Shown: positions 3,043-28,969 of the stretch, piece after piece
How positions within the stretch are numbered: position 1 is the stretch's first letter
Layout of the letters: every line of letters starts with the position of its first letter
IMG/VR virus record: IMGVR_UViG_3300037882_002148
Span: 1-28,969 of that record
Strand: one strand, 5' to 3'
DNA: 28,969 bases
Source: a virus
The notes under the pieces: model-generated
Seen by the model: only the letters and a program-made list of their open reading frames with translations
Told to the model about the DNA's origin: nothing
Databases searched by the model: none
Translations under genes and position numbers: made by a program

Positions 3043-3666
3043 TTAACAAGAAATGGGTCTAAATTTTGAATAGGCAGTAATTATAGTTCTTGATATGTTC
3101 GTATAACTATACCCATGTAATATCTTGCGTATAGTGATTACATTTCGTCCATACTTGTCAGCAATATCTTGTGAGGATACACCAGACAAATACAATTCTG
3201 GGATATATTTTATAATTTCCTCAGATAAGCTACCATTTAACAAACCATATTCCCTCATATTTCTCATATTATCTTGGTGAGTACCTAGTGATAGATTACT
3301 AGGATGAATATTCAACTTGATATTATCTTTATGCATCACATGAAGATTATCATGTATTTTTCCATTAACAATTTGATACATGAATCTGTGTGAGGATTGT
3401 CGAATTTGTTTTTTATTAGCATATCTACAAGCCAGACTAAATCCTCCATATCCGCCACCAATCAGCGAACCTTTCCATAACCAAGTATTATCATCGACAA
3501 TATCAATGAATGATTCAAATATAGAAATGCGATGTCTAATGTAATCTTCTGGGTAGGGTAAGAAATGTGAAAGATCATCTAATAATTTTGTGCCACATAT
3601 ATGAGTTGCACAGTTATAATTTTTGGGTTTGGGGGTATAAATTTTTTTACCAGAAAAAATTGTCAT
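3043..3666 (-). CDS. HNH endonuclease with C-terminal helix-turn-helix (homing-endonuclease type)
   Basis: Residues about 93-133 form an HNH module of the phage type: S-H-R-x-M-Y near the start, NGKIHDNLHVMHKDN, then HPSNLSLGTHQDNM. Residues about 145-190 (LSEEIIKYIPELYLSG, SSQDIADKYG, TIRKIL) are the helix-turn-helix that usually follows in free-standing homing endonucleases and contacts the target DNA. The Cys residues found in many zinc-stabilised relatives (HKCDNPxCVNPEHL) are missing here, and the change could affect folding or activity. It is the last gene of the minus-strand operon, 17 bases after another HNH gene of a different subtype. It probably cuts phage DNA at a specific site to spread itself. 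Confidence 0.85.
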   Translation of the reverse strand: MTIFSGKKIYTPKPKNYNCATHICGTKLLDDLSHFLPYPEDYIRHRISIFESFIDIVDDNTWLWKGSLIGGGYGGFSLACRYANKKQIRQSSHRFMYQIVNGKIHDNLHVMHKDNIKLNIHPSNLSLGTHQDNMRNMREYGLLNGSLSEEIIKYIPELYLSGVSSQDIADKYGRNVITIRKILHGYSYTNISRTIITAYSKFRPISC

Positions 3667-3683: not shown

Positions 3684-4379
3684 TCAATATATTGGAGTAG
3701 GTTTATTCCATTTTGCTTGATTCTCTATATGCTCTTTCACCAACAGATCTAATTTTTCTTGATATTTTGTTGTAAAGCATACAGTATAATCAGGCAACCA
3801 ATTTGGAACAGATTGTAAATATCGTTGTGGAGATACTAATTGAGATTTAGTACCAAATTGATAGTGGATGTTTTGGAGATAATCTATTGGGAGCGAACCA
3901 AAATTCATATGTTGTTTGATAGTTGGCAATCTAATTGCTGTTAGGAAACTATTACCATGATGATTTACACCTAATGGTAGAGAATTAGTAGTTTTCTTCA
4001 GTGCAGTGTTGAACCAATTTGTCACTAATTCTAGATTTGCTCTTTGGTTGTTGGTAGGATCACCATCTATATGATTAATGACCCAATTGGCATTAGTTTT
4101 GATACCATATATTAGTTCGTGTATGTATTTCATTTTTCCATTTGATCTTGTACAAAATCTACCATTATTATCCACACCAAAATTATATTGTTTTAGTAGT
4201 GGTACAGAAGAGAGATCAATAGTGTTGGTATAGAGATCACCAGTGATAGTGTTTAATACGTGTAGCTGGTTGTCTACAAATAATTGATTGTATGTTATTT
4301 TTTTTCCAGTTTTATTGATGTTGTGATTAGGCAGATCGAATTGATAGAGTTTAGTACTGTCATCTGTAATGACATGCAT
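3684..4379 (-). CDS. HNH homing-type endonuclease, copy A
   Basis: This 231-aa protein carries an HNH core: H87 in 'YIHELI', VINHIDGDPTNN at about 100-111, and N115-L-E, followed by 'N-x-A-x-K' and a conserved DNA-binding tail. It is a close paralogue of the protein encoded from 19736 down to 19044. The two share most of their length, including the motifs FDLPNHN, NQLFVD, TNTIDLS and LPLGVNH, and are clearly similar at DNA level too. Copy A lies 3 bases downstream of an 83-aa gene in the accessory operon; copy B lies among structural genes. HNH enzymes of this kind nick or cut DNA with one metal ion. Self-propagation within or between phage genomes is the likely role. Confidence 0.85.
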   Translation of the reverse strand: MHVITDDSTKLYQFDLPNHNINKTGKKITYNQLFVDNQLHVLNTITGDLYTNTIDLSSVPLLKQYNFGVDNNGRFCTRSNGKMKYIHELIYGIKTNANWVINHIDGDPTNNQRANLELVTNWFNTALKKTTNSLPLGVNHHGNSFLTAIRLPTIKQHMNFGSLPIDYLQNIHYQFGTKSQLVSPQRYLQSVPNWLPDYTVCFTTKYQEKLDLLVKEHIENQAKWNKPTPIY

Positions 4380-11463: not shown

Positions 11464-13311
11464 ATGAAAATCTCACCATTAGTGAATCTAGATTTCGAGC
11501 AAATAAAGTTGCAACTGAAGTATTTTCTCAAAAACAATACTAAATTTACTGATTATGATTACGAAGGCAGTAACGTAAATCAATTATTAGATGTATTGTC
11601 TTATGTTACTTTTTTGAATGCGTATAATACAAATATCGGATTAAACGAATTAAATTTACAGACAGCAGTATTGAGGGATACGGTAACATCCAAAGCACAA
11701 GAATTAGGATATACACCAAATAATTACAAAAGTGCAAGTATAAATGTAAATTTAACCATAACAGTACCACCAACCGCAGCATTTGTTGAAATTCCAGCGG
11801 GAGTTAGTTTTGTAGGTACCAGACAAAATGATAATTTGGCATATACATTTAACACAATAAATCGACAAATAGTATCAACCGAAGGAGGATTAGTAAACAC
11901 CTCAATAGTAGTGAAAGAGGGAATATTGATCGAAAATACCTATGTGTATGGGATAGAAGAAGCAGATAGAATCATTATCAGTAATGATAAAATTGATCTT
12001 GATACAATAACAGTAGTAGCTAATGGAAAAGAGTATAAGAGATATGATAATTTAAACAATTATGATTATACATTTTACACTAGCGTGATCCAAGACAACA
12101 ACATAGAAATAGAATTTGGTAGAACTATATTCGGTAAGGCACCAAATATAGGAGAAACGGTAACAGTATCATATTTGGTAAATCATGGTAGTTTAGCTAA
12201 TGGAGTAAAAAATCTAACATTTACTGGTGAATATAAGTATTATACCAATAGTAATGTACTTGGTACATTGGTACCAATACAAAATATCACATTTACGAAT
12301 AGTGTTAGTGATGGCGGTACGGACACAGAAACACTAGCGGAAATAAAATTTAAAGCAACAAAATTATTCATCGCACAAAATAGAGCAGTAGTAGGATCAG
12401 ATTATCAGAGTATAATATTAAATAACTTTCCGTATGTTGGTAGTGTACAAGTAATGGGCGGAGAAGATTTGACACCACCACAATACGGAAAAATAAAATT
12501 AACTATTCAAACAAAAAATGGATTAAAGTTAAATAATATCCAAAAAAACAATATAAAAGATACATTAAAAAGATATAACATTACTACTATACCAATTATA
12601 ACAGATAGTAATTATGTTAACCTAAAAATAAGATCATATATTAAGTACAATCCAAAAAAACTACCAAAAAATGTAGATAAATTGATACAATCGATAACTA
12701 AAATCATTAATGATTATGTTGGTACTGAATTAAAAACTGAATTCTATGGTCATAAATTAGAAAGTTTGATATACAAAGCTGATGAATCGATAGAATCAGT
12801 AAAAATAAAATTAGTAACAGTGGAAGAACAAACCAGCAATACTGGTAATTTTAGTAGTACTGGCAATGATATAAAAAATGACAATTGCAATTTGTACAGT
12901 TTACTAAGCAAATCATATATCGATAATGGAGAATTTTATAGAATATCCTCACTGGGGGATAACAGCCTCATACAGACACAGAAATACAATTTTGATACAA
13001 ATAGTGGTGAGTGGGTTAATGATGCTGTTGTAGGGCAAATAAACCCCAATACAGGAGATTATACATATAATCTTACTGGTGTGAATCAAATAACCGTAGT
13101 ATCCATCCCCGAAACGTTAGATCTAGTGGGTGATAGTGTATTAGTGCCAATTATATTCACACCAGTGATATCGGACAAAGATATATCAATTAATTACAAC
13201 ATCACTACGGAACCAGAATTAGCAAACCCAACAAAAAAACCTAACACTACCGCAATCAGTAGTGTTAGTATAAATGATATAATCCCAATTATATCAAATA
13301 TCAATTGTTAA
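11464..13311 (+). CDS. 6: Baseplate wedge protein, T4 gp6-like
   Basis: The N-terminus has the gp6 hallmark: an IKLQLKYFLKN helix, KFTDYDYEGSNVNQLLDVLSY (about residues 27-47), an 'AYNTNIGLNELNLQTA' helix and 'VTSKAQELGYTPNNYKSA'. Residues about 290-480 correspond to the baseplate J-like part (TLAEIKFKATKLF, RAVVGSDYQSIIL, VMGGEDLTPPQYGKIKLTI). gp6 dimers form the inner ring that holds the six wedges together. At 615 aa it is near the usual size. The last 18 bases overlap the 3' end of the 1896-aa gene on the other strand. The C-terminal 120 residues vary in the family and are poorly recognisable here. Confidence 0.92.
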   Translation: MKISPLVNLDFEQIKLQLKYFLKNNTKFTDYDYEGSNVNQLLDVLSYVTFLNAYNTNIGLNELNLQTAVLRDTVTSKAQELGYTPNNYKSASINVNLTITVPPTAAFVEIPAGVSFVGTRQNDNLAYTFNTINRQIVSTEGGLVNTSIVVKEGILIENTYVYGIEEADRIIISNDKIDLDTITVVANGKEYKRYDNLNNYDYTFYTSVIQDNNIEIEFGRTIFGKAPNIGETVTVSYLVNHGSLANGVKNLTFTGEYKYYTNSNVLGTLVPIQNITFTNSVSDGGTDTETLAEIKFKATKLFIAQNRAVVGSDYQSIILNNFPYVGSVQVMGGEDLTPPQYGKIKLTIQTKNGLKLNNIQKNNIKDTLKRYNITTIPIITDSNYVNLKIRSYIKYNPKKLPKNVDKLIQSITKIINDYVGTELKTEFYGHKLESLIYKADESIESVKIKLVTVEEQTSNTGNFSSTGNDIKNDNCNLYSLLSKSYIDNGEFYRISSLGDNSLIQTQKYNFDTNSGEWVNDAVVGQINPNTGDYTYNLTGVNQITVVSIPETLDLVGDSVLVPIIFTPVISDKDISINYNITTEPELANPTKKPNTTAISSVSINDIIPIISNINC

Positions 13312-13330
13312 GGTAGAATTTGATATTGGG
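13284..13330. repeat. Imperfect inverted repeat spanning the gp6 and 1896-aa stop codons
   Basis: CCCAAT-(TAT)-ATCAAAT on the left is complementary to ATTTGAT-ATTGGG on the right, giving 13 bp with a 3-nt bulge around an 18-nt loop. It encloses both stop codons of the convergent genes. It could fold in both transcripts and slow or stabilise their 3' ends. No T-run makes it a classical terminator. Confidence 0.4.
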
Positions 13331-16300
13331 TATACTTGTGATTCAATCGTGCCATATTGGTATATCTTTGGATAAAAATTATTAGTATACCCACTACCAG
13401 CATTAATGATATTAGCACTAACGACACTGCCATTCAAAGTTTCTAACAGCACTAGTGCATTAGTAACACCACCAATTAATTCTAATAGGAGATAACGAGG
13501 ATAATTAAGTCCAGGGTAATCTACATATACATATACCAGTTTACCATTATCCATATAGTAATCGAAAGTGGCAGGTGTCACATCAGCAATATTATTAGAT
13601 ATTATAGAAAACACACTATCAATATTAGTAGTCTTATCACAAACCCAAAGATGAAGATCAGAAATCGCATCGGTAGTGGATACCGTAATTATATTAGTAG
13701 TGATGTCGTAATCACTCGGCATCAACAAAACTCCATTAACAAACAATAGTGTACCAAATTCTATAGGTATTGGTGCGGGAATTGTGTATATATTGTTTGT
13801 TATTTGTGTTGTGGTGATATATTCAAAATTATTAGAATAGATACCATATACATCACCACTAACCACAGAACTAAAAGTTACAGTAGATCCTACTATGGTA
13901 TAATCTCGATTTATAACATTATTAACAAATAATAAAAATTTACTATTATTGGGTGAATAATTGTTGTTGTTGACGGTTAACGTACAAGTATTACTGGTTA
14001 CTGGAATAACATCAGTAAATACTAATTTAGCGGTACTAAAATTAAATAAAGTTATTTTATCATTAGTATTAACGGCAGAATATACTTTAGCCTTATTGTT
14101 AGTAATAACGCAATTGTTATTATTGTGTTGAACTACACCATTAATCAGCAATAAACTATTAGTTGCGCTACCATACACTAGATCCTCAAAAATAATCGTG
14201 GAGTAAACTGTAGTTAGTACCTGATTGCTATTGATGATCTTTAATATAATTCTGTTGTGGTTTTCTGTCAACCAAACTAAATCACCAACACTGTAATTAT
14301 CAAATTTACTATAATTAGAATAAACATAATTATCATCAAAATAATAATAATCAAAATATTGTTTGGCTAATTGTGTATTTTTGTATAGATCTGTAGGTAA
14401 TGAATCAACAATAATATCAAGATATTGTTCTGCATTCGATAATAAAGATATGTTTTGTTGGATCGCAACTACATAATCTACAACATTTCTTATTTGTTGT
14501 TGTTTATGCAAATACAATTTAATTACATTTTGTAGTTGGTATGTGCTAGATAATTTATTACCCAACATATGAACATTATTAACTACAGCTTCTTTCCATT
14601 CTGATATATTGTGTGGGGAGGATATAGTGTAAGAATACTTTTGATATTTTAGGTTATCGGCAATAATGTTGGTAGCAGTTATTAGAGAATCTTGATTAGT
14701 ATTATCGATAACATGTTTGTTACTACTGGCTTTATGATAGGTATTTGCTCTACTAACATTATATATTCTTCCTAATCTATTACCAAATTCATCCCACAAA
14801 TAATAGTTGACATCTATAATAAACTCACCAGTAGGATTACTGATTTGTAAAGTTGATGCAGTTTTATCGTAATGAACTATTTTAGATCTTACTATATAAT
14901 TGTTTCTAGATTCCCCATAATACACATACCCAGTAGACGCTATATCTTTTTTTTCGAGGATTGGTAGCAGAACAGCACCATTGTTATTAACAACATCTAG
15001 GTAAATGACTGGATTAAATTCAAAGAAAGAACCGCCATTTATAATGGTAGCACCTATAATTTTACCATCAGATATTATAAATTGGCAAGAAAATTCAGTA
15101 TTCAATAAATTTGGTGTAGAATAAAAATTACTACCGCCATCCACTACTAATATACTGGTTACAGTATTGTTACCATTTATTGATAACACTACATCAGTAT
15201 TGATATTATAATTGATAGTAGGATCTCCGCCAAATTTATCACCATTAGAAACAGTTTTTAATGATTTTATTGAACCAATACTTTTACTACCAAACACCAA
15301 TACAGCACCAATACCAGCAATAGTATTGATTTTGTATGTTGGTATTTTTGTTAATACATAACCAGCATCAACGATATTAACTGTAGCTATACTACCATCT
15401 GTATTAACAAAAGTAACCACAGCCGATGCAGTACTGTTATCAAATGTTATAATATCACCAACTTGATAATTATAACCAGGGATGTCCACATAGCAGCTAT
15501 CTATACCACCAGTACTAAGTTTATCTGTGGTATTGATGACTGAGTATATGTTGTTAGCGGGGGTAGGGAAATTTGGTTCTTGTTTGTATATTCTGGTAGC
15601 ATCACTAGGGATATCACAATTGTTTATCAATTTGAGATGATTATACGGATCAAATTTGTACTTATAGAAATTGCCTATAAAGTAAGGGAAAGTAGGAGTG
15701 GCAAAATAACAATATCTACCTTCGGGAAACTCAGGAGTTACACAAAATCTACCATTATATTCATCCAAATAGGAATTATCTGTATATTCATAATCTTCGA
15801 CAAATGCACCAATTGCATCAGTAGGTCTACTGGTAGGAATATTACTAATTATAGTCCACCCAGAATTCATAATAACTACAGCAGAATTCCGATCTAGTGG
15901 TGATGAATAGCCGAAACTACTATATATTGGACAGCCATCATATGCCCAACCAATTATAGGAGAATGTACATATTGAGTACTGCCCCCGCCATAACCGTAT
16001 CCGTATCCATAACCGTACCCATAGCCACCACCACCACCAGTAGTAGTTCCAACATCGAAGTTGAATAATTTCAAATATTGTTCTGGATAATTTGTATCGG
16101 GAATGTTGACTTTAGTCAACCCAATATCATTATTGTTGTAAGTATAACACCCATTAGCATCCATGTTTATAGTGTTATAATTCAAAATATCAGTAGTCCA
16201 ACGCTCAATATTACAATTAAAAGTAGCACTATTGTTATTAGGTTCGATGTATAATTCTGGATTATAATAACCATCTCCGCCATCAACAACATCAACAGAA

Positions 16301-18984
16301 ATAATTTTTCCACCAAATACCGACACAGCAAATTCAGCACCAACACCATTAGTATTTCTTAATAATACATTCGGAATGGTGAAATAATTAATACCACCAT
16401 TATCTACTGATACTGATGAGATTTTACCATTAACAGTAGAAACACTAAGCACAGCACCAGTACCGCTTGGTATTGCTACTACTGGTGTGCTGGTATATAC
16501 AATACTGTTTGGTATATCTAGCAGCTTATAAGATTTAGGATCGAACAATTCATCACTCAATTCTTGTAAAGTAAATGTATTTTTACCAATAAATCCAGAT
16601 ACTAATATATTTTTAGTTGGTATTGTCAGTGGTGTTGTGTATCTCCCACCATTAATTATCGTTATTGTGGGTATTTCTGTATACCATTTACCACCATTAA
16701 TTATCGTTATTCCTTTAACTACACCACTGACATCGTAGTCTACTTCTAACTCTAATCCGATACCAGTTACATCATTTAGTCCTCTAGTTATCAATATTTC
16801 TGGTTTTTTATTATAGTTTCTCAACTGATTATCTGGGATACCATCAATACTAATTTCAGAAACACTACCATATATTTTAATAACATTACTGGTATTAACA
16901 CCATTAATCGTAACATATGGGTATTGTTCAGTGGCAGTATTTGGTATTTTATATCCACTACCAAAATTTTGTATTTCTAATTTAGTGATCAACCCATAAT
17001 TAACAATATTTCCCTTGTAGCTATTGATTTCGATCCCATCTGTAGTCAATCCTATGCCTCTGCTAGTAGGTGTTAATTCTACTATATTATTCTTTTTGAA
17101 TCTTTTTAAAATAGTTTGTTCTGCTGATGTTCGGAAATATGAGGTAGTATTGAAATTAATACCATTTGCGGCGGTGTATATATGTTCATTAGTCTCATAC
17201 ACGCCTAGTACATTATACCAACTGCTTTTAATAGGTTCTTTATGGATGATTTGATATGTGTTACTGAATGTAGAATTTGTGTAACCAGAACCACCATCAA
17301 CCACTACCGCAGACGAAGAAACACCGATTAATACAAAATTACAACTAGTATTACCAGATGATAGTGTCACATTAAACTTGAATATATTACTATTGTTCAA
17401 ATTATTCGGTAATATATAACCACCGTATAATGATACCACATCACCATAGTTTGCATTATACAATTGCCCAATATATACATCCCTAACCACACCAATTAAT
17501 TTATTTATAGTTTTAGCAGAATAGTATATATATTCGGTGCCAATTTTAACAACCCCATTATTAGGAAATCCAATAGTGGAGTCTACGGTTATTTGATCAC
17601 CAACCATAGTAATAAATTTACTGTGTGGTGGCAAATATAATACATTGTTCTCATCGATTATTAAATTTATTACTTTCCTACCACCATCACTATAAACCAA
17701 ATTTACATTAGACACTGATGTTTTTACATCAGCAATTCCCAATCTTTTTGGTAATTCTTGAGTTAATGTTACATTGCGTTCGCTTAATATATTATTAAAA
17801 TTGTCGTTATTATCATCCAATTGTAACAATAATTCAGAATATTCATTCGGAATTGTGTTTGTTTTTAGTGTGTTGCTGTATGGTAATAGCACACTAGGTT
17901 CTATGAGTTCAGTAGTGATATTTGCTATAGTAGCTACTGTATTATCACCAAATATACGTTCACCAATCGAAAATAATTTTTCTGTTTCGTATATATACAG
18001 TTCATTATTATCAGGATTCCAGTACTTTACTATCCCAATATTAGTATTAGTAACGCTGTCGCCAATAGGAGTATTAACAATAAAATCCTGTTCGGTTACG
18101 ACAATATTGTTATTTTTTGAATAAAGAATACCCCCATTTAATATAGACACAGTAGTAATTACACCACCTACTATACCAGTAATTGCTATTTTAGCACCAC
18201 TACCTACTCCAAACACATCAACTCTAGGATAAAACTGGATACTTAAATCTGTATACCCAGACCCACCACTAACTATATCAACTTGGGTAATTACCCCACC
18301 TACTACTGTAGCTACCAATACTGCACCAGAACCTCTTGGTGCTAGTTTCAACTTAACAAAAGTATCATCATACAATATTTTGAATAAAAATTTTATACTA
18401 GCTTCGGTGCCTTTAGTGGTATAAAAATCTTTAATATGGCTGATTAAAATGCCATAATTGATCTTCTTGTTTAACCTTTTTGGTAGATTATTTAGATAAA
18501 CATACTTAAATATGTTCAGTATATGTTCGGAAAACCCGTATGCTACATTAAAGACTTCATTACCAGATTGTTGTAGTTTGTATATACTCTTACTATACAC
18601 ACAAACTTCGTTCACTATTTCTGCTGCCGAAACACCTCTAATACAGGATAAAAAACTATCACTAGATTTGTTTTTGTAGTATATATATTCATCGTTGATC
18701 TTCAAAAAACCAGATTTGGGGAAGCCTTTGGTGCTGTTTACTATTAATGTAGTGTTATTATCTTGTATTAGTCTGGTAGATTCTTGAAGATTATTTAATT
18801 TATGATTTTTTATGTTGTAGTAGTTCAACAAATTATTGATAATATCCAAACTACCAAATAGTTCCTCCTGCGATTTGTAGTATTCTTGCACGAAACCAAC
18901 AAAATCTGGATAATTCTCTTGAATGCGATCTACAAATAGATCTGGTATTTTATACGATATATTGATATTGCTACTGGTTCTCAT
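13294..18984 (-). CDS. Giant virion structural protein with GGxxY beta repeats and a YHYH-like domain
   Basis: The 1896-aa protein is built from several parts. Residues 10-60 and 165-215 (PDFVGFVQEYYKSQE, then DFYTTKGTEASIKFLFKILY) match the N-terminus of large cyanomyovirus structural proteins. Residues 78-120 and about 457-500 are a GFPxSGxLxIxxEYIYY module. From about 218 to the C-terminus roughly a dozen units end in a strand-turn 'V-x-GG-x-x-Y-x-x-x-P' (SGGSGYTD, VDGGSGYTN, INGGKWYTEIP, VDGGDGYYNP, VDGGSNFYSTP, INAGSGYTN). Residues 983-1001 are a Gly/Tyr tract. Residues about 1008-1110 resemble the YHYH domain (GWAYDGCPIY, then NGRFCVTPEFPEGRY, FPYFIG). The protein is probably a peripheral baseplate or fibre-like part that meets the host surface; receptor binding is inference. 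Confidence 0.8.
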   Translation of the reverse strand: MRTSSNINISYKIPDLFVDRIQENYPDFVGFVQEYYKSQEELFGSLDIINNLLNYYNIKNHKLNNLQESTRLIQDNNTTLIVNSTKGFPKSGFLKINDEYIYYKNKSSDSFLSCIRGVSAAEIVNEVCVYSKSIYKLQQSGNEVFNVAYGFSEHILNIFKYVYLNNLPKRLNKKINYGILISHIKDFYTTKGTEASIKFLFKILYDDTFVKLKLAPRGSGAVLVATVVGGVITQVDIVSGGSGYTDLSIQFYPRVDVFGVGSGAKIAITGIVGGVITTVSILNGGILYSKNNNIVVTEQDFIVNTPIGDSVTNTNIGIVKYWNPDNNELYIYETEKLFSIGERIFGDNTVATIANITTELIEPSVLLPYSNTLKTNTIPNEYSELLLQLDDNNDNFNNILSERNVTLTQELPKRLGIADVKTSVSNVNLVYSDGGRKVINLIIDENNVLYLPPHSKFITMVGDQITVDSTIGFPNNGVVKIGTEYIYYSAKTINKLIGVVRDVYIGQLYNANYGDVVSLYGGYILPNNLNNSNIFKFNVTLSSGNTSCNFVLIGVSSSAVVVDGGSGYTNSTFSNTYQIIHKEPIKSSWYNVLGVYETNEHIYTAANGINFNTTSYFRTSAEQTILKRFKKNNIVELTPTSRGIGLTTDGIEINSYKGNIVNYGLITKLEIQNFGSGYKIPNTATEQYPYVTINGVNTSNVIKIYGSVSEISIDGIPDNQLRNYNKKPEILITRGLNDVTGIGLELEVDYDVSGVVKGITIINGGKWYTEIPTITIINGGRYTTPLTIPTKNILVSGFIGKNTFTLQELSDELFDPKSYKLLDIPNSIVYTSTPVVAIPSGTGAVLSVSTVNGKISSVSVDNGGINYFTIPNVLLRNTNGVGAEFAVSVFGGKIISVDVVDGGDGYYNPELYIEPNNNSATFNCNIERWTTDILNYNTINMDANGCYTYNNNDIGLTKVNIPDTNYPEQYLKLFNFDVGTTTGGGGGYGYGYGYGYGYGGGSTQYVHSPIIGWAYDGCPIYSSFGYSSPLDRNSAVVIMNSGWTIISNIPTSRPTDAIGAFVEDYEYTDNSYLDEYNGRFCVTPEFPEGRYCYFATPTFPYFIGNFYKYKFDPYNHLKLINNCDIPSDATRIYKQEPNFPTPANNIYSVINTTDKLSTGGIDSCYVDIPGYNYQVGDIITFDNSTASAVVTFVNTDGSIATVNIVDAGYVLTKIPTYKINTIAGIGAVLVFGSKSIGSIKSLKTVSNGDKFGGDPTINYNINTDVVLSINGNNTVTSILVVDGGSNFYSTPNLLNTEFSCQFIISDGKIIGATIINGGSFFEFNPVIYLDVVNNNGAVLLPILEKKDIASTGYVYYGESRNNYIVRSKIVHYDKTASTLQISNPTGEFIIDVNYYLWDEFGNRLGRIYNVSRANTYHKASSNKHVIDNTNQDSLITATNIIADNLKYQKYSYTISSPHNISEWKEAVVNNVHMLGNKLSSTYQLQNVIKLYLHKQQQIRNVVDYVVAIQQNISLLSNAEQYLDIIVDSLPTDLYKNTQLAKQYFDYYYFDDNYVYSNYSKFDNYSVGDLVWLTENHNRIILKIINSNQVLTTVYSTIIFEDLVYGSATNSLLLINGVVQHNNNNCVITNNKAKVYSAVNTNDKITLFNFSTAKLVFTDVIPVTSNTCTLTVNNNNYSPNNSKFLLFVNNVINRDYTIVGSTVTFSSVVSGDVYGIYSNNFEYITTTQITNNIYTIPAPIPIEFGTLLFVNGVLLMPSDYDITTNIITVSTTDAISDLHLWVCDKTTNIDSVFSIISNNIADVTPATFDYYMDNGKLVYVYVDYPGLNYPRYLLLELIGGVTNALVLLETLNGSVVSANIINAGSGYTNNFYPKIYQYGTIESQVYPISNSTLTIDI
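15982..16038 (-). repeat. Gly/Tyr codon repeat within the giant structural gene
   Basis: Nineteen codons encode five Gly, six Tyr alternating with Gly, and three Gly. Synonymous codons vary (GGT, GGA, GGC, GGG; TAT, TAC), so this is not a fresh clonal expansion. It lies just before the YHYH-like domain and is likely a flexible linker or an aggregation-prone hinge. Confidence 0.8.
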
Positions 18985-19043: not shown

Positions 19044-19736
19044 CTAATATATTGATTCTGGTTTGTCCCATTTTGCTTGGTTCTCTAGATGCTCTTTCAC
19101 CAACATATCTATTTTTTCCTGATGTTTTGGCTTGAAGATCATGCTGTTATCAGGCAACCAATTTAGTGTTGCTTCCAAATATCGTTGTGGAGATACTAAA
19201 CCAGATTTAGTACCAAACTGATAATGGATGTTTTGTAAGTAATCTATTGATTTTGAACCAAAATTTATCTGTTGTTGGATAGTTGGTAATCTAATTCTTA
19301 TCACAAAACTATTACCATTATCATGGTTTACACCTAATGGTAAAGAATTAGTAGTTTTCTTCAATGCCGAATTGAACCAATTAGTTACTAATTCTAGATT
19401 TGCTCTTTGATTATTAGTACAATTGCCATCTATATGATTGATGACCCAATTATTGTTGGTTTTGAGATTACATATTAGTTCGTGTATGTATGTAGTTTTC
19501 TCATTTAGTTGGGTGCGAAATCTACCACCACCATCTAAACCAAAATTATATAGTTTTAGTAGTGGCACAGCAGAGAGATCAATAGTGTTGGTAGATAGAT
19601 CACCAGTGTTGATGTTTAGTAGATGTAGTTTATCATCTACAAATAATTGATTGTATGTTAGTTTACTACCTTTATATGTATTATGATTAGGTAGATCGAA
19701 AGAATATGTATTAGTGCTGTCGTTATAATGGATCAT
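19044..19736 (-). CDS. HNH homing-type endonuclease, copy B
   Basis: A close paralogue of the enzyme encoded from 4379 down to 3684: it shares FDLPNHN, LTYNQLFVD, TNTIDLS, the HNH core (YIHELI, VINHIDGN-x-x-NN, NLELVTNWFN), LKKTTNSLPLGVNH, the YLQNIHYQFGTKS tail and the final ENQAKW. The start (MIHYNDSTNT) is chosen to match copy A; the frame also allows an ATG nine codons earlier at 19763. It lies between the divergent gp8 gene and the 1896-aa gene in the same direction as the latter, a free-standing endonuclease among late structural genes. Substitutions are spread throughout with the catalytic His/Asn residues kept, so both copies appear intact. Confidence 0.82.
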   Translation of the reverse strand: MIHYNDSTNTYSFDLPNHNTYKGSKLTYNQLFVDDKLHLLNINTGDLSTNTIDLSAVPLLKLYNFGLDGGGRFRTQLNEKTTYIHELICNLKTNNNWVINHIDGNCTNNQRANLELVTNWFNSALKKTTNSLPLGVNHDNGNSFVIRIRLPTIQQQINFGSKSIDYLQNIHYQFGTKSGLVSPQRYLEATLNWLPDNSMIFKPKHQEKIDMLVKEHLENQAKWDKPESIY

Positions 19737-19776
19737 GTAGTTACAAATAGTTGCATATTCCATTATAACACAGAAA

Positions 19777-19809: not shown

Positions 19810-21297
19810 ATGAGTTCAATTAATACGAACAATTTCAGACAATTATTAGCCGATTCTTTCGTTAATGCATTCACCAGCAATAACATATATATTTTTCTGT
19901 CGCGTTCGCAGATTTGGAACAAAGATGAAAATCTAGGCAATCCAGCCGTGTCAGAATTGACAGCACCATTACCGACCGACAACTACGAAGAATACAATCG
20001 CATACACGACAACATGATCGCCATCAAAAAGATTGATGTCAGTAGTGTTACAAAAGTGGTGAGAAAAATTGTTTGGGCACCAGGGATCACCTACGATATG
20101 TATAAGGATAATTATTCAGTGAATAATCCATCATCTTCTGGTGCTACCAATTTAATTAGTTCCAACTTTTATGTAGTAAACAGTCAATTTCAGGTATTTA
20201 AGTGTATCTACAATGGCGAGAGTCCAGAAAATTTACTAGGTATCCCCACATCTGTGGGTTCAGAACCGATAATTACTGGTTCACCCACAGCGATCATTAC
20301 TACTGCTGACGGCTATAGATGGAAGTTCCTCTACTCGCTCACTACCAATCAAGTATTAAAGTTTGCGAATAATAACTACATTCCAGTCTTCACCGATGCT
20401 ATCGTAAGTGCTGCAAGCGTCAGTGGTTCTATAAATCAAACAAATATAGTAGATCGAGGACTAAATCTAAATCCTGGTGTCTATTATACTAAAGTAGTCG
20501 GTAATGGTAGTGGTGCTGTTGTATCATTTGTAGTACCAAACGACAACTTAGATCCATTCGATCAAAGAATTGCATCAGTTTCTGTATTATCTGCTGGAGT
20601 GGGTTATACATATGGCAAAATAAATTTGAATAATGTATTTAGTGACAGTGCATGTACTAACTCAGTATCTCTATCCAGCACAGCATTAACAAATCCAGAA
20701 ACCATGCTGGTGCCAATCATCAGTCCAGTGGACGGGCATGGGTATAATCCAAGTAACGAATTAGGTGCTAATAGTGTAGTTGTCGCACCAATCATCGAAT
20801 CTATAGATGGTGATATTCCAATCAACATCCAATACAGACAATATGGAGTGTTAAAAAACCCACAAATATTCAACACAACTACACCATTTACTGATACTAC
20901 TGGTAATTGTATGCACAAAATAAAATTTGAATCTTCATTTACTGGTACTTTTGTGTTGGGTGATACTATCACTCAAGCAGGTGGTGGTGCGGAAGGTGTA
21001 GTAATAGGATGGGATGGTGTAAATAAAGTATTATCCTACTACCAGAATAAATATAATAATAATGGATCATATACACCATTTGAGATAAACAACAATACAA
21101 TAACAGCTACGTCTGGTGCCTTTGCATCACCAGACACAACATACAATTCTACAATTACTAATAGCACATTTGTAAATGGATTTGCTGTACCAGAAGTCAA
21201 AAAATACAGTGGGGAAATTATGTATATTGAAAATAGACAAGCCATCAATCGCAGCTTGGATCAAAACGAAGAAATTAAACTAATACTAGAATTTTAA
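19810..21297 (+). CDS. 8: Baseplate wedge protein, T4 gp8-like
   Basis: Residues 1-180 follow the gp8 family: an N-terminal helix (NNFRQLLADSFVNAF), 'NIYIFLSRSQIWNKDE' where T4 gp8 has its FxxFGRSxPW segment, 'APLPTDN', 'RKIVWAPGITYDMY', 'NFYVVNSQFQVFKCIYNG' and the diagnostic DGYRWKFLYSL (about 167-177). T4 gp8 forms a dimer at the wedge periphery. At 495 aa this version is longer than T4 gp8 (334 aa); the extra C-terminal part has GDTITQAGGGAEGVVIGWD-like beta motifs, as in cyanophage homologues. It begins the plus-strand late run with the DUF4815-type gene 43 bases downstream. Confidence 0.9.
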   Translation: MSSINTNNFRQLLADSFVNAFTSNNIYIFLSRSQIWNKDENLGNPAVSELTAPLPTDNYEEYNRIHDNMIAIKKIDVSSVTKVVRKIVWAPGITYDMYKDNYSVNNPSSSGATNLISSNFYVVNSQFQVFKCIYNGESPENLLGIPTSVGSEPIITGSPTAIITTADGYRWKFLYSLTTNQVLKFANNNYIPVFTDAIVSAASVSGSINQTNIVDRGLNLNPGVYYTKVVGNGSGAVVSFVVPNDNLDPFDQRIASVSVLSAGVGYTYGKINLNNVFSDSACTNSVSLSSTALTNPETMLVPIISPVDGHGYNPSNELGANSVVVAPIIESIDGDIPINIQYRQYGVLKNPQIFNTTTPFTDTTGNCMHKIKFESSFTGTFVLGDTITQAGGGAEGVVIGWDGVNKVLSYYQNKYNNNGSYTPFEINNNTITATSGAFASPDTTYNSTITNSTFVNGFAVPEVKKYSGEIMYIENRQAINRSLDQNEEIKLILEF

Positions 21298-27588: not shown

Positions 27589-28004
27589 ACACCAAAATAA
27601 AAAATTATGAAATAAAACAACACTCCACTTTTTATGAAACTATTAGATTGTTAAACACTAATCGTTCTCCAAAAGATATAACTGGATGGTTGATATATGG
27701 TGGTGTTCATCATTTCTACAACACATCAATATATACACCATTCGTAATTACAATACCAGATGCAACAAATGGGATATTTGATATAAAAATAGCTTCTGCT
27801 GATACCAGTCTGTTAATCAGTAGCTATAGTGGCAATAGTGGTAATTATATCTACGATATAGCCGCAAAACTACCAGACAATACAGTGTTGAGATTACAAT
27901 CGGGTGGGATTGTGGTTTCTGCTGGTATAACTAATACAGCATTACCAGGATTCCCACCAATAAATGATGATGATACTATATTTATAGATGGGGGTGTAAT
28001 TTAA
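27585..28004 (+). CDS. BppU-like N-terminal domain virion protein, 139 aa
   Basis: The pattern at the start, 'IKQHSTFYETIRLLNTNRSPKDITGWLIYGGV', resembles the N-terminal domain of phage baseplate upper proteins (BppU) and the related small cyanophage proteins: (I/F)xQGxTFxxxxRLxDxxGxPxDLTGYxxxxQI. The rest is a beta sandwich (VITIPDATNGIFDIKIASADT, YIYDIAAKLPDNTVLRLQSG). In siphophages this domain links receptor-binding proteins to the baseplate. Here it probably serves as a small adaptor. It overlaps both neighbours by 1-4 bases. Confidence 0.65.
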   Translation: MNTKIKNYEIKQHSTFYETIRLLNTNRSPKDITGWLIYGGVHHFYNTSIYTPFVITIPDATNGIFDIKIASADTSLLISSYSGNSGNYIYDIAAKLPDNTVLRLQSGGIVVSAGITNTALPGFPPINDDDTIFIDGGVI

Positions 28005-28801
28005 TGAAACCAAACAGCAGAGAGTCTTTAATTAGCTATGCACTTAAACAATTAGGCGCACCACTAATAGAAATCAATGTAGAACGCTCTCAACTTGATA
28101 ATTTACTAGACGACACCATCCAACTATATCAAGAACGAGTGTATGATGGTGTCGAAGATGTCTATCTCAAATATGTAATCACCCAAACAGATATCGACAA
28201 TAGTTGTAATAATACTCCTGTAGCAAATACTAATGGTCTATCATTCGTAGAGAATAAAAATTATCTATTACTACCAGATCATATAATTGGTGTTACTCAA
28301 GTACTAAACACTAACTATGGTGGCTATACTGATATGTTTGGCAGAACTGCTGAATTTTATATGCATGATAAATTCAACTTTTTTGGCAATGCTATCATCG
28401 ATCTGACTGACATCTACATCATGCGAGAGACTATCCAGAATACTAAAAATTTATTGAATCCAGAAAATAATATTGAATTTAATTACAGTAGTGGTAGATT
28501 ATACTTGCAGTTTAATATCGCCAATATGTTGGGGCAGTATATTGTAATTCACTGTCAACGCGCAATCGATCCTAATCAATTTAATAAGATTTATAATAAC
28601 AGGTTCGTGAAGGAATATTTCACAATACTTGCCGAAGAGCAATGGGGAAAGAATCTATCCAAATTTAGTAATATTAGTTTGCCAGGAAACGTAATGTTTA
28701 ATGCTGACAAAATTTTAGCTAGTGCTACACAAAAAAAAGCAGAATTTTTAGCGAAAATGCAAGCTGAATGGGAAACACCAAGTCACTTTTTTGTTGGTTA
28801 G
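28004..28801 (+). CDS. 13: Neck protein, T4 gp13-like
   Basis: The N-terminus SRESLISYALKQLGAPLIEINVERSQLDNLLDDTIQLYQE and the next segment 'YDGVEDVYLKYVIT' are signatures of gp13 of T4-type phages, especially the cyanomyovirus form. At 265 aa it is slightly shorter than T4 gp13 (309 aa). gp13 and gp14 form the neck rings that close the packaged head and connect it to the tail. It is translationally coupled to the previous gene (TAATG). In T4 gene 14 follows directly; here it does not, because the sequence after the stop changes character into a mobile-element end within 30 bases. Confidence 0.92.
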   Translation: MKPNSRESLISYALKQLGAPLIEINVERSQLDNLLDDTIQLYQERVYDGVEDVYLKYVITQTDIDNSCNNTPVANTNGLSFVENKNYLLLPDHIIGVTQVLNTNYGGYTDMFGRTAEFYMHDKFNFFGNAIIDLTDIYIMRETIQNTKNLLNPENNIEFNYSSGRLYLQFNIANMLGQYIVIHCQRAIDPNQFNKIYNNRFVKEYFTILAEEQWGKNLSKFSNISLPGNVMFNADKILASATQKKAEFLAKMQAEWETPSHFFVG

Positions 28802-28828
28802 TCCAACAAGAATGCTCTACAACACGTA

Positions 28829-28969
28829 TTGACATACCTCCCACCGCTAACCCGCAACGGGTATAGCTGGGGATTCCTTTACGCTTCATCGAATATTGCT
28901 GCACCCACCGCGCAAGCGGTTTCCTCAGTCTTACACACTCTCTGCGTACATTTTACATCGTGCCGATGA
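28829..28969 (-). mobile_element. Putative right end / omega RNA region of an IS200/IS605-family TnpB element, cut by the window edge
   Basis: Base composition jumps to clearly GC-richer than the phage genes. Read on the minus strand the sequence runs GGAATCCCCAGC, a small hairpin (ACCCG-TTG-CGGGT), then GCGGTGGGAGGTATGTCAA. That is the typical layout of an IS605-type right end, which is also the 3' scaffold of the omega RNA used by TnpB. A second hairpin (ACCGC-TTGC-GCGGT) lies upstream at about 28918-28931. The element would end at TGTCAA near 28829. A minus-strand frame entering from the window edge stops at 28879 and could be the C-terminal tail of tnpB, but it has no diagnostic residues. 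The tnpB gene itself, if present, lies outside the window. Confidence 0.5.

Follow-up and report, generated by a model that had tools for sequence, protein, structure and literature searches.

A probable IS200/IS605-type tnpB element lies antisense behind the gp13 neck gene of a T4-like phage

The reRNA of the insertion sequence ISDra2 is described as an RNA of ~150 nt that spans the 3' end of tnpB together with the right end of the element, and its last ~16 nt, which are flanking DNA, are described as directing cleavage beside the TAM (PMC8612924). According to the report on the Campylobacter phages CP220 and CPt10, which share T4-like genes, these phages carry the TnpB-only IS200/IS605 elements ISCaje1-3, and their genomes also have putative homing endonucleases (PMC2853527). 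Moreover, a TnpB gene drive directed against element-free plasmids has been published (PMC11870625). Here we describe a viral contig 28,969 bases long (the window, which is the whole stretch of DNA analysed and the entire record). With a probability of roughly 0.8, an IS200/IS605-type tnpB element lies in this contig, antisense, behind gp13 of a T4-like phage that probably infects cyanobacteria, either at the gp14 start or within it (Table 1).

Table 1. Features of the window
Feature	Position	Strand	Basis or remark
gp6-like gene	11464-13311		T4-like
gp8-like gene	19810-21297		T4-like
Long protein	21341-27394		Matches PHROGs of unknown function
gp13-like neck protein (head-tail adaptor Ad2)	28004..28801	+	phrog_211, E 1.8e-33
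Phage flank, gp13 stop to element boundary	28802..28828	+	Possible gp14 start ATG at 28812 (MLYNT + TA)
Omega-RNA guide position: 20 bases of phage DNA adjoining the right end	28809..28828	-	Direct reading; PMC8612924
Element as far as visible (141 bases)	28829..28969	-	Truncated by the contig end
Right-end hairpin GGAATCCCC...GGGAGGTATGTCAA	28829..28877	-	Terminus at 28829; pattern and homology
Last 29 tnpB codons and stop (HRHDVKCTQRVCKTEETACAVGAAIFDEA, then stop)	28879..28968	-	In register with the TnpB C-termini of L309 and L292
GTGTAAGAC motif, in the tnpB 3' end / omega-RNA region	28928..28936	-	

The gp13 of the window matched 935 phage records; among the matches listed, the best identity was 38% and most were cyanophages, and a cyanobacterial host is probable for this T4-like phage. 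Three free-standing HNH endonuclease genes lie on the minus strand (3043-3666, 3684-4379 and 19044-19763), recognized by Pfam HNH_3 (the third marginally under the cut-off) and as PHROG HNH endonucleases, and the phage therefore has other homing-type genes. Between the gp6-like and gp8-like genes, and in the opposite orientation to them, sits a gene for a baseplate/structural-like protein of 1896 aa (13294-18984, minus strand) with piecewise matches to several structural PHROGs, including part of the head-closure family. An inverted repeat (TTTTTGTTGG / CCAACAAGAA, 28788-28812) runs across the gp13 stop; no classic terminator was found there on either strand.

A preliminary description of this DNA had placed an IS200/IS605 right end, in a GC-richer segment, immediately behind the neck gene, and both points held. 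In particular, the last 140 bases are 52% GC, and none of the 28,690 other 140-base stretches of the contig is equally GC-rich. The right-end pattern GGAATCCCC-N(8-38)-GGGAGG-N(0-1)-ATGTCAA matched the window once, at the minus-strand hairpin listed in Table 1, and was found in 0 of 100 shuffles. This hairpin closes on the TGTCAA end, with the TCAA terminus of IS200/IS605-type elements, and both the hairpin and the reRNA/omega-RNA region fall within the visible part of the element. The description had treated positions 28802-28969 as one segment; from 28829 onward this is indeed the element, whereas 28802-28828 proved to be phage flank. Note that the minus-strand RNA fold is no stabler than that of shuffles (z -0.81), so the hairpins alone are no proof and the evidence is homology. 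The covariance search suggested earlier for an omega RNA came up empty: Rfam gave no match in the segment at the gathering threshold and irrelevant chance matches only at E up to 10. An exact 19-mer of the right end had 0 matches in the viral contig collection, and the exact GGGAGGTATGTCAA end had 0 matches in genome contigs searched with the first version of the pattern.

Part of this homology comes from tnpB, whose 3' end the preliminary description had missed while suggesting that the gene be sought. The visible 29 codons and stop of tnpB precede the right end and share its strand, and the minus frame HRHDVKCTQR...DEA-stop aligns with ...GHRHDLKCTSR...NEA-stop in the copies of Baaleninema simplex and in L309. 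(Pfam and NCBIfam both identify the L309 and L292 proteins as TnpB.) Taken by itself the peptide is marginal (phmmer E 0.029; 4 of 50 shuffles had any match, the best at 0.042). Every phmmer match of the peptide was a TnpB protein, however, mainly at the C-terminus and in register, and we therefore conclude that the 3' end of tnpB is present. PF07282 and a profile built from A1 had no match in the window, which holds 29 tnpB codons only. As the contig stops 141 bases into the element, well short of the 2 kb over which the preliminary description had wanted tnpB and a left end to be sought, the RuvC catalytic residues and zinc finger of TnpB, the left end and gp14 lie beyond it. At the nucleotide level, 386 genomes from the phylum to which Baaleninema simplex belongs were compared with the 141 bases, and 13 matched with E no higher than 0.001. 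One cyanobacterial TnpB element (L306) was 71% identical over query positions 2-101 (E 1.7e-6), its alignment spanning all 141 bases when gaps were allowed, and a cyanobacterial end (L302) was 88% identical over positions 93-141 (E 1.2e-8). Judged by these alignments, the nearest relatives found are cyanobacterial TnpB elements. (Note that in the Baaleninema copies the left boundary falls in a repeated intergenic motif, so that the left end and TAM are ambiguous there.)

The same alignments decide against the idea, raised in the preliminary description as an alternative, that the segment is conserved phage coding sequence. A plus-strand frame is open from the gp13 stop almost to the contig end and the plus-strand fold is stabler than expected (z -2.27), as conserved phage DNA behind gp13, coding or terminator, might show. 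In 12 of 14 IMG/VR relatives, however, gp14 comes directly next, the phage collection gives no match to the segment, and the alignment to TnpB elements rules this reading out in practice. An IStron (a group I intron plus an IS605 end) lies in the same orientation as its host gene; this candidate was rejected because the element is antisense to gp13. TldR, a TnpB-derived repressor, is marked by a degenerate RuvC and a guide directed to a promoter; in the window, the body of TnpB lies beyond the contig.

To place the right end in context, we searched genome and viral collections for the pattern, which at least 115 genome and at least 120 viral stretches carried; the stretches listed hold 243 matches (117 genomic, 126 viral). 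A tnpB frame ends upstream on the same strand in 132 of these 243 (47 of the 117 genomic and 85 of the 126 viral), and 0 of 243 have a TnpB frame solely downstream or solely on the opposite strand. In another 60 the sequence available beside the end is shorter than 400 bases, and 51 have no TnpB within 1.5 kb although space allows. The TnpB profile behind these counts was built from 11 such proteins, only some of them tested with Pfam, which called nine of 10 upstream proteins TnpB and one a sulfatase. For 10 of the 243 ends the GTGTAAGAC motif (or TGTAAGAC[CT]) lies within the 260 bases upstream; for none does it lie downstream. Two matches were set aside: L018, found with a looser pattern, is a chance match within coding sequence, and a match on a Nostocales plasmid is a solitary end close to a tyrosine integrase and a Tn3 fragment. 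A search for the gp13 family in six viral records with such ends found 0 of 6, and the control likewise matched nowhere.

Because 51 of the 243 ends have no TnpB nearby, a right end alone does not establish an intact element. The window may thus hold a dead or tnpB-deleted, non-autonomous remnant, a right end and tnpB tail without a working nuclease, and we regard this as possible though rather unlikely. Pointing the same way are a 174.5-kb viral contig with two such ends away from any TnpB, a Baaleninema copy (L294) that fuses an earlier part of the TnpB frame to the tail as if internally deleted, and two changes in the window hairpin, an A where relatives carry C and an extra T before ATGTCAA by comparison with the Calothrix/Scytonema type. 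Against a remnant, the tnpB tail stays open over its 29 codons and keeps the register of its relatives, and if the reading of the contig break given below is right, the 141 bases are identical at two or more places in the sample, which suggests recent movement.

The 174.5-kb contig (IMGVR_UViG_3300028048_001497) deserves a separate comment. Its two tnpB-less copies of ~370 bases (L202 1-650 and L253 1-520) apparently carry both palindromic ends, and it also encodes 4 TnpB genes. In both copies TATAAT lies 4 bases past the right end; the guide position therefore spans a promoter-like site.

Turning to the insertion site, the element lies directly behind gp13, and gp14 is missing from that place, as the preliminary description had said. 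Two of the 14 IMG/VR relatives have an extra gene between gp13 and gp14: a homing endonuclease (phrog_314, NUMOD3; L015 3080-3646) and a 170-aa protein without assigned function (L016 6466-6975). Among phage records, gp14 lies no more than 11 bases behind gp13 in 12 of 16 (DSL-LC02 being counted by its sequence rather than its annotated start); the gap is 59 bases in K368, and extra genes separate the two in Mendera, PhaxI and LIMEstone1, the insert of PhaxI being an antisense endonuclease with T5orf172/MUG113 domains (L277 2545-3255). The extra genes in these relatives indicate that the junction accepts mobile genes. (In Synechococcus phage DSL-LC02, L267 2334-2955, gp14 directly follows gp13 with a broken frame, and a later start is annotated.)

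Before the element begins, the flank reads ATG CTC TAC AAC ACG TA. In relatives gp14 frequently starts M-x-x-N-x-[YF]: N at position 4 and Y/F at position 6 occur in 14 of 23, and in 20 of 23 if S is allowed for N and H for Y/F. This motif, which was picked post hoc, fits 0.14% of random 27-mers and just 2 of the 1006 remaining ATGs in the window. Counter to this, a TAM of TTGAT or TTAC, the targets given for ISDra2 and IS608 (PMC8612924), would make codon 6 of the candidate gp14 a stop. That the element interrupts the start of gp14 is thus plausible on the sequence, although the evidence conflicts, and we put it at about even odds.

The point at which the contig stops is informative in its own right. 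The visible element is exactly 141 bases long, which is the last k of the usual MEGAHIT list. According to the authors of COBRA, who use k lists ending in 127 and 141, metaSPAdes and MEGAHIT leave maxK bases at breaks caused by repeats (PMC10914622). Among 69 contigs from other records that end no more than 400 bases inside such an element, with distances counted from the terminus, 16 break at exactly 55, 77, 99, 127 or 141 bases, where a flat spread predicts 0.97 of 69. (Three of 72 distances, from L077, L070 and L220, were excluded as the stretch, and not the contig, ended there. Note that the five k values were chosen after the distances had been seen; all are in the assemblers' usual lists.) On the flank side of the terminus, 1 of 16 contig ends falls at such a k value. 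The excess inside the element suggests that assembly broke off in a repeated element. Weighing against this, the assembler of the record is not given, and of the other contigs named k141 with ends here, 1 of 6 breaks at exactly 141. On the favored reading, the element has several flanks in the sample, and the window would end where the assembly graph branches. More generally, a distance from terminus to contig end that equals an assembler k marks an element boundary and hints at a repeat.

These observations bear on whether the contig is a chimera, a host element end misjoined to a phage contig. The junction is seen in one contig only, and the nearest relatives found for the end belong to cyanobacterial genomes. 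We nevertheless consider a misjoin very unlikely, as a true path into a repeat would be expected to break at exactly 141 bases, a de Bruijn path requires reads across the junction, and the boundary coincides exactly with the TCAA terminus.

We favor, then, a tnpB element inserted behind gp13, and the phage DNA in its guide position lies exactly where the preliminary description had put it, as direct reading confirmed. The element would have inserted antisense behind gp13, with assembly halting in sequence present at more than one place in the sample. An RNA of ~150 nt, transcribed across the tnpB 3' end and the right end, would carry at its own 3' end ~16-20 bases read from phage DNA, from 28828 down to 28809. 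TnpB with this RNA would then cut element-free gp13-gp14 junctions beside the TAM, and repair off a filled copy would retain or spread the element. We infer a multi-copy state, an active TnpB and retention; retention by the cutting of empty copies would be consistent with known TnpB biology, and the drive between co-infecting phages that the preliminary description had proposed is speculative.

A stronger proposal is that this is a phage-adapted homing element, in which TnpB replaces the protein homing endonucleases that fill the gp13-gp14 junction in other phages and spreads through co-infection. The other inserts at the junction (those of L015 and PhaxI), the phage DNA in the guide position and the published plasmid drive (PMC11870625) are in keeping with this idea, which we nonetheless judge unlikely. 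A flank in guide position is no sign of phage adaptation because any IS200/IS605 element has one, gp14 may be broken, and the phages with an empty site that had been proposed for comparison were not found (an 18-mer of the guide had 0 matches in the viral contig collection). Less likely still is a takeover of the homing niche, in which the antisense element interrupts gp14 within its first codons, the guide RNA aims at the gp14 start of element-free rivals, homing occurs on co-infection, and expression of gp14 continues from a start that the element provides or that lies past it. An intact element would offer a natural and testable instance of RNA-guided homing where essential phage genes meet.

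How does this locus compare with described systems? The cyanobacterial TnpB elements (Baaleninema simplex PCC 7105 L292-L297, L306 and L309) share with it the TnpB C-terminus, the TAAAG(G)AATCCCC hairpin, the TATGTCAA end and the order and spacing of these parts; the window, with 141 bases visible, differs in its longer hairpin, longer tnpB tail and phage location. ISCaje1-3 resemble it as TnpB elements within virulent T4-related phages and differ in host; ISCaje2 and ISCaje3 are described as inserting at ATTTT, whereas the target in the window lies beyond the contig (PMC2853527). With ISDra2 it shares a right end whose reRNA reads flanking DNA (PMC8612924); the TAM and any tnpA, further points of comparison with ISDra2 and IS608, lie beyond the contig. 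The IS200/605 gene drive is alike in that TnpB retargeted to a new site would attack element-free copies, and differs in concerning plasmids rather than phages, as presented in that work (PMC11870625). A narrow literature search found no published TnpB element at the gp13-gp14 junction. Of 50,697 phage records, 394 hold relatives of the L309 TnpB, some of them Microcystis phages, and TnpB elements in phages, T4-like ones among them, have already been published; the window is a good but ordinary example.
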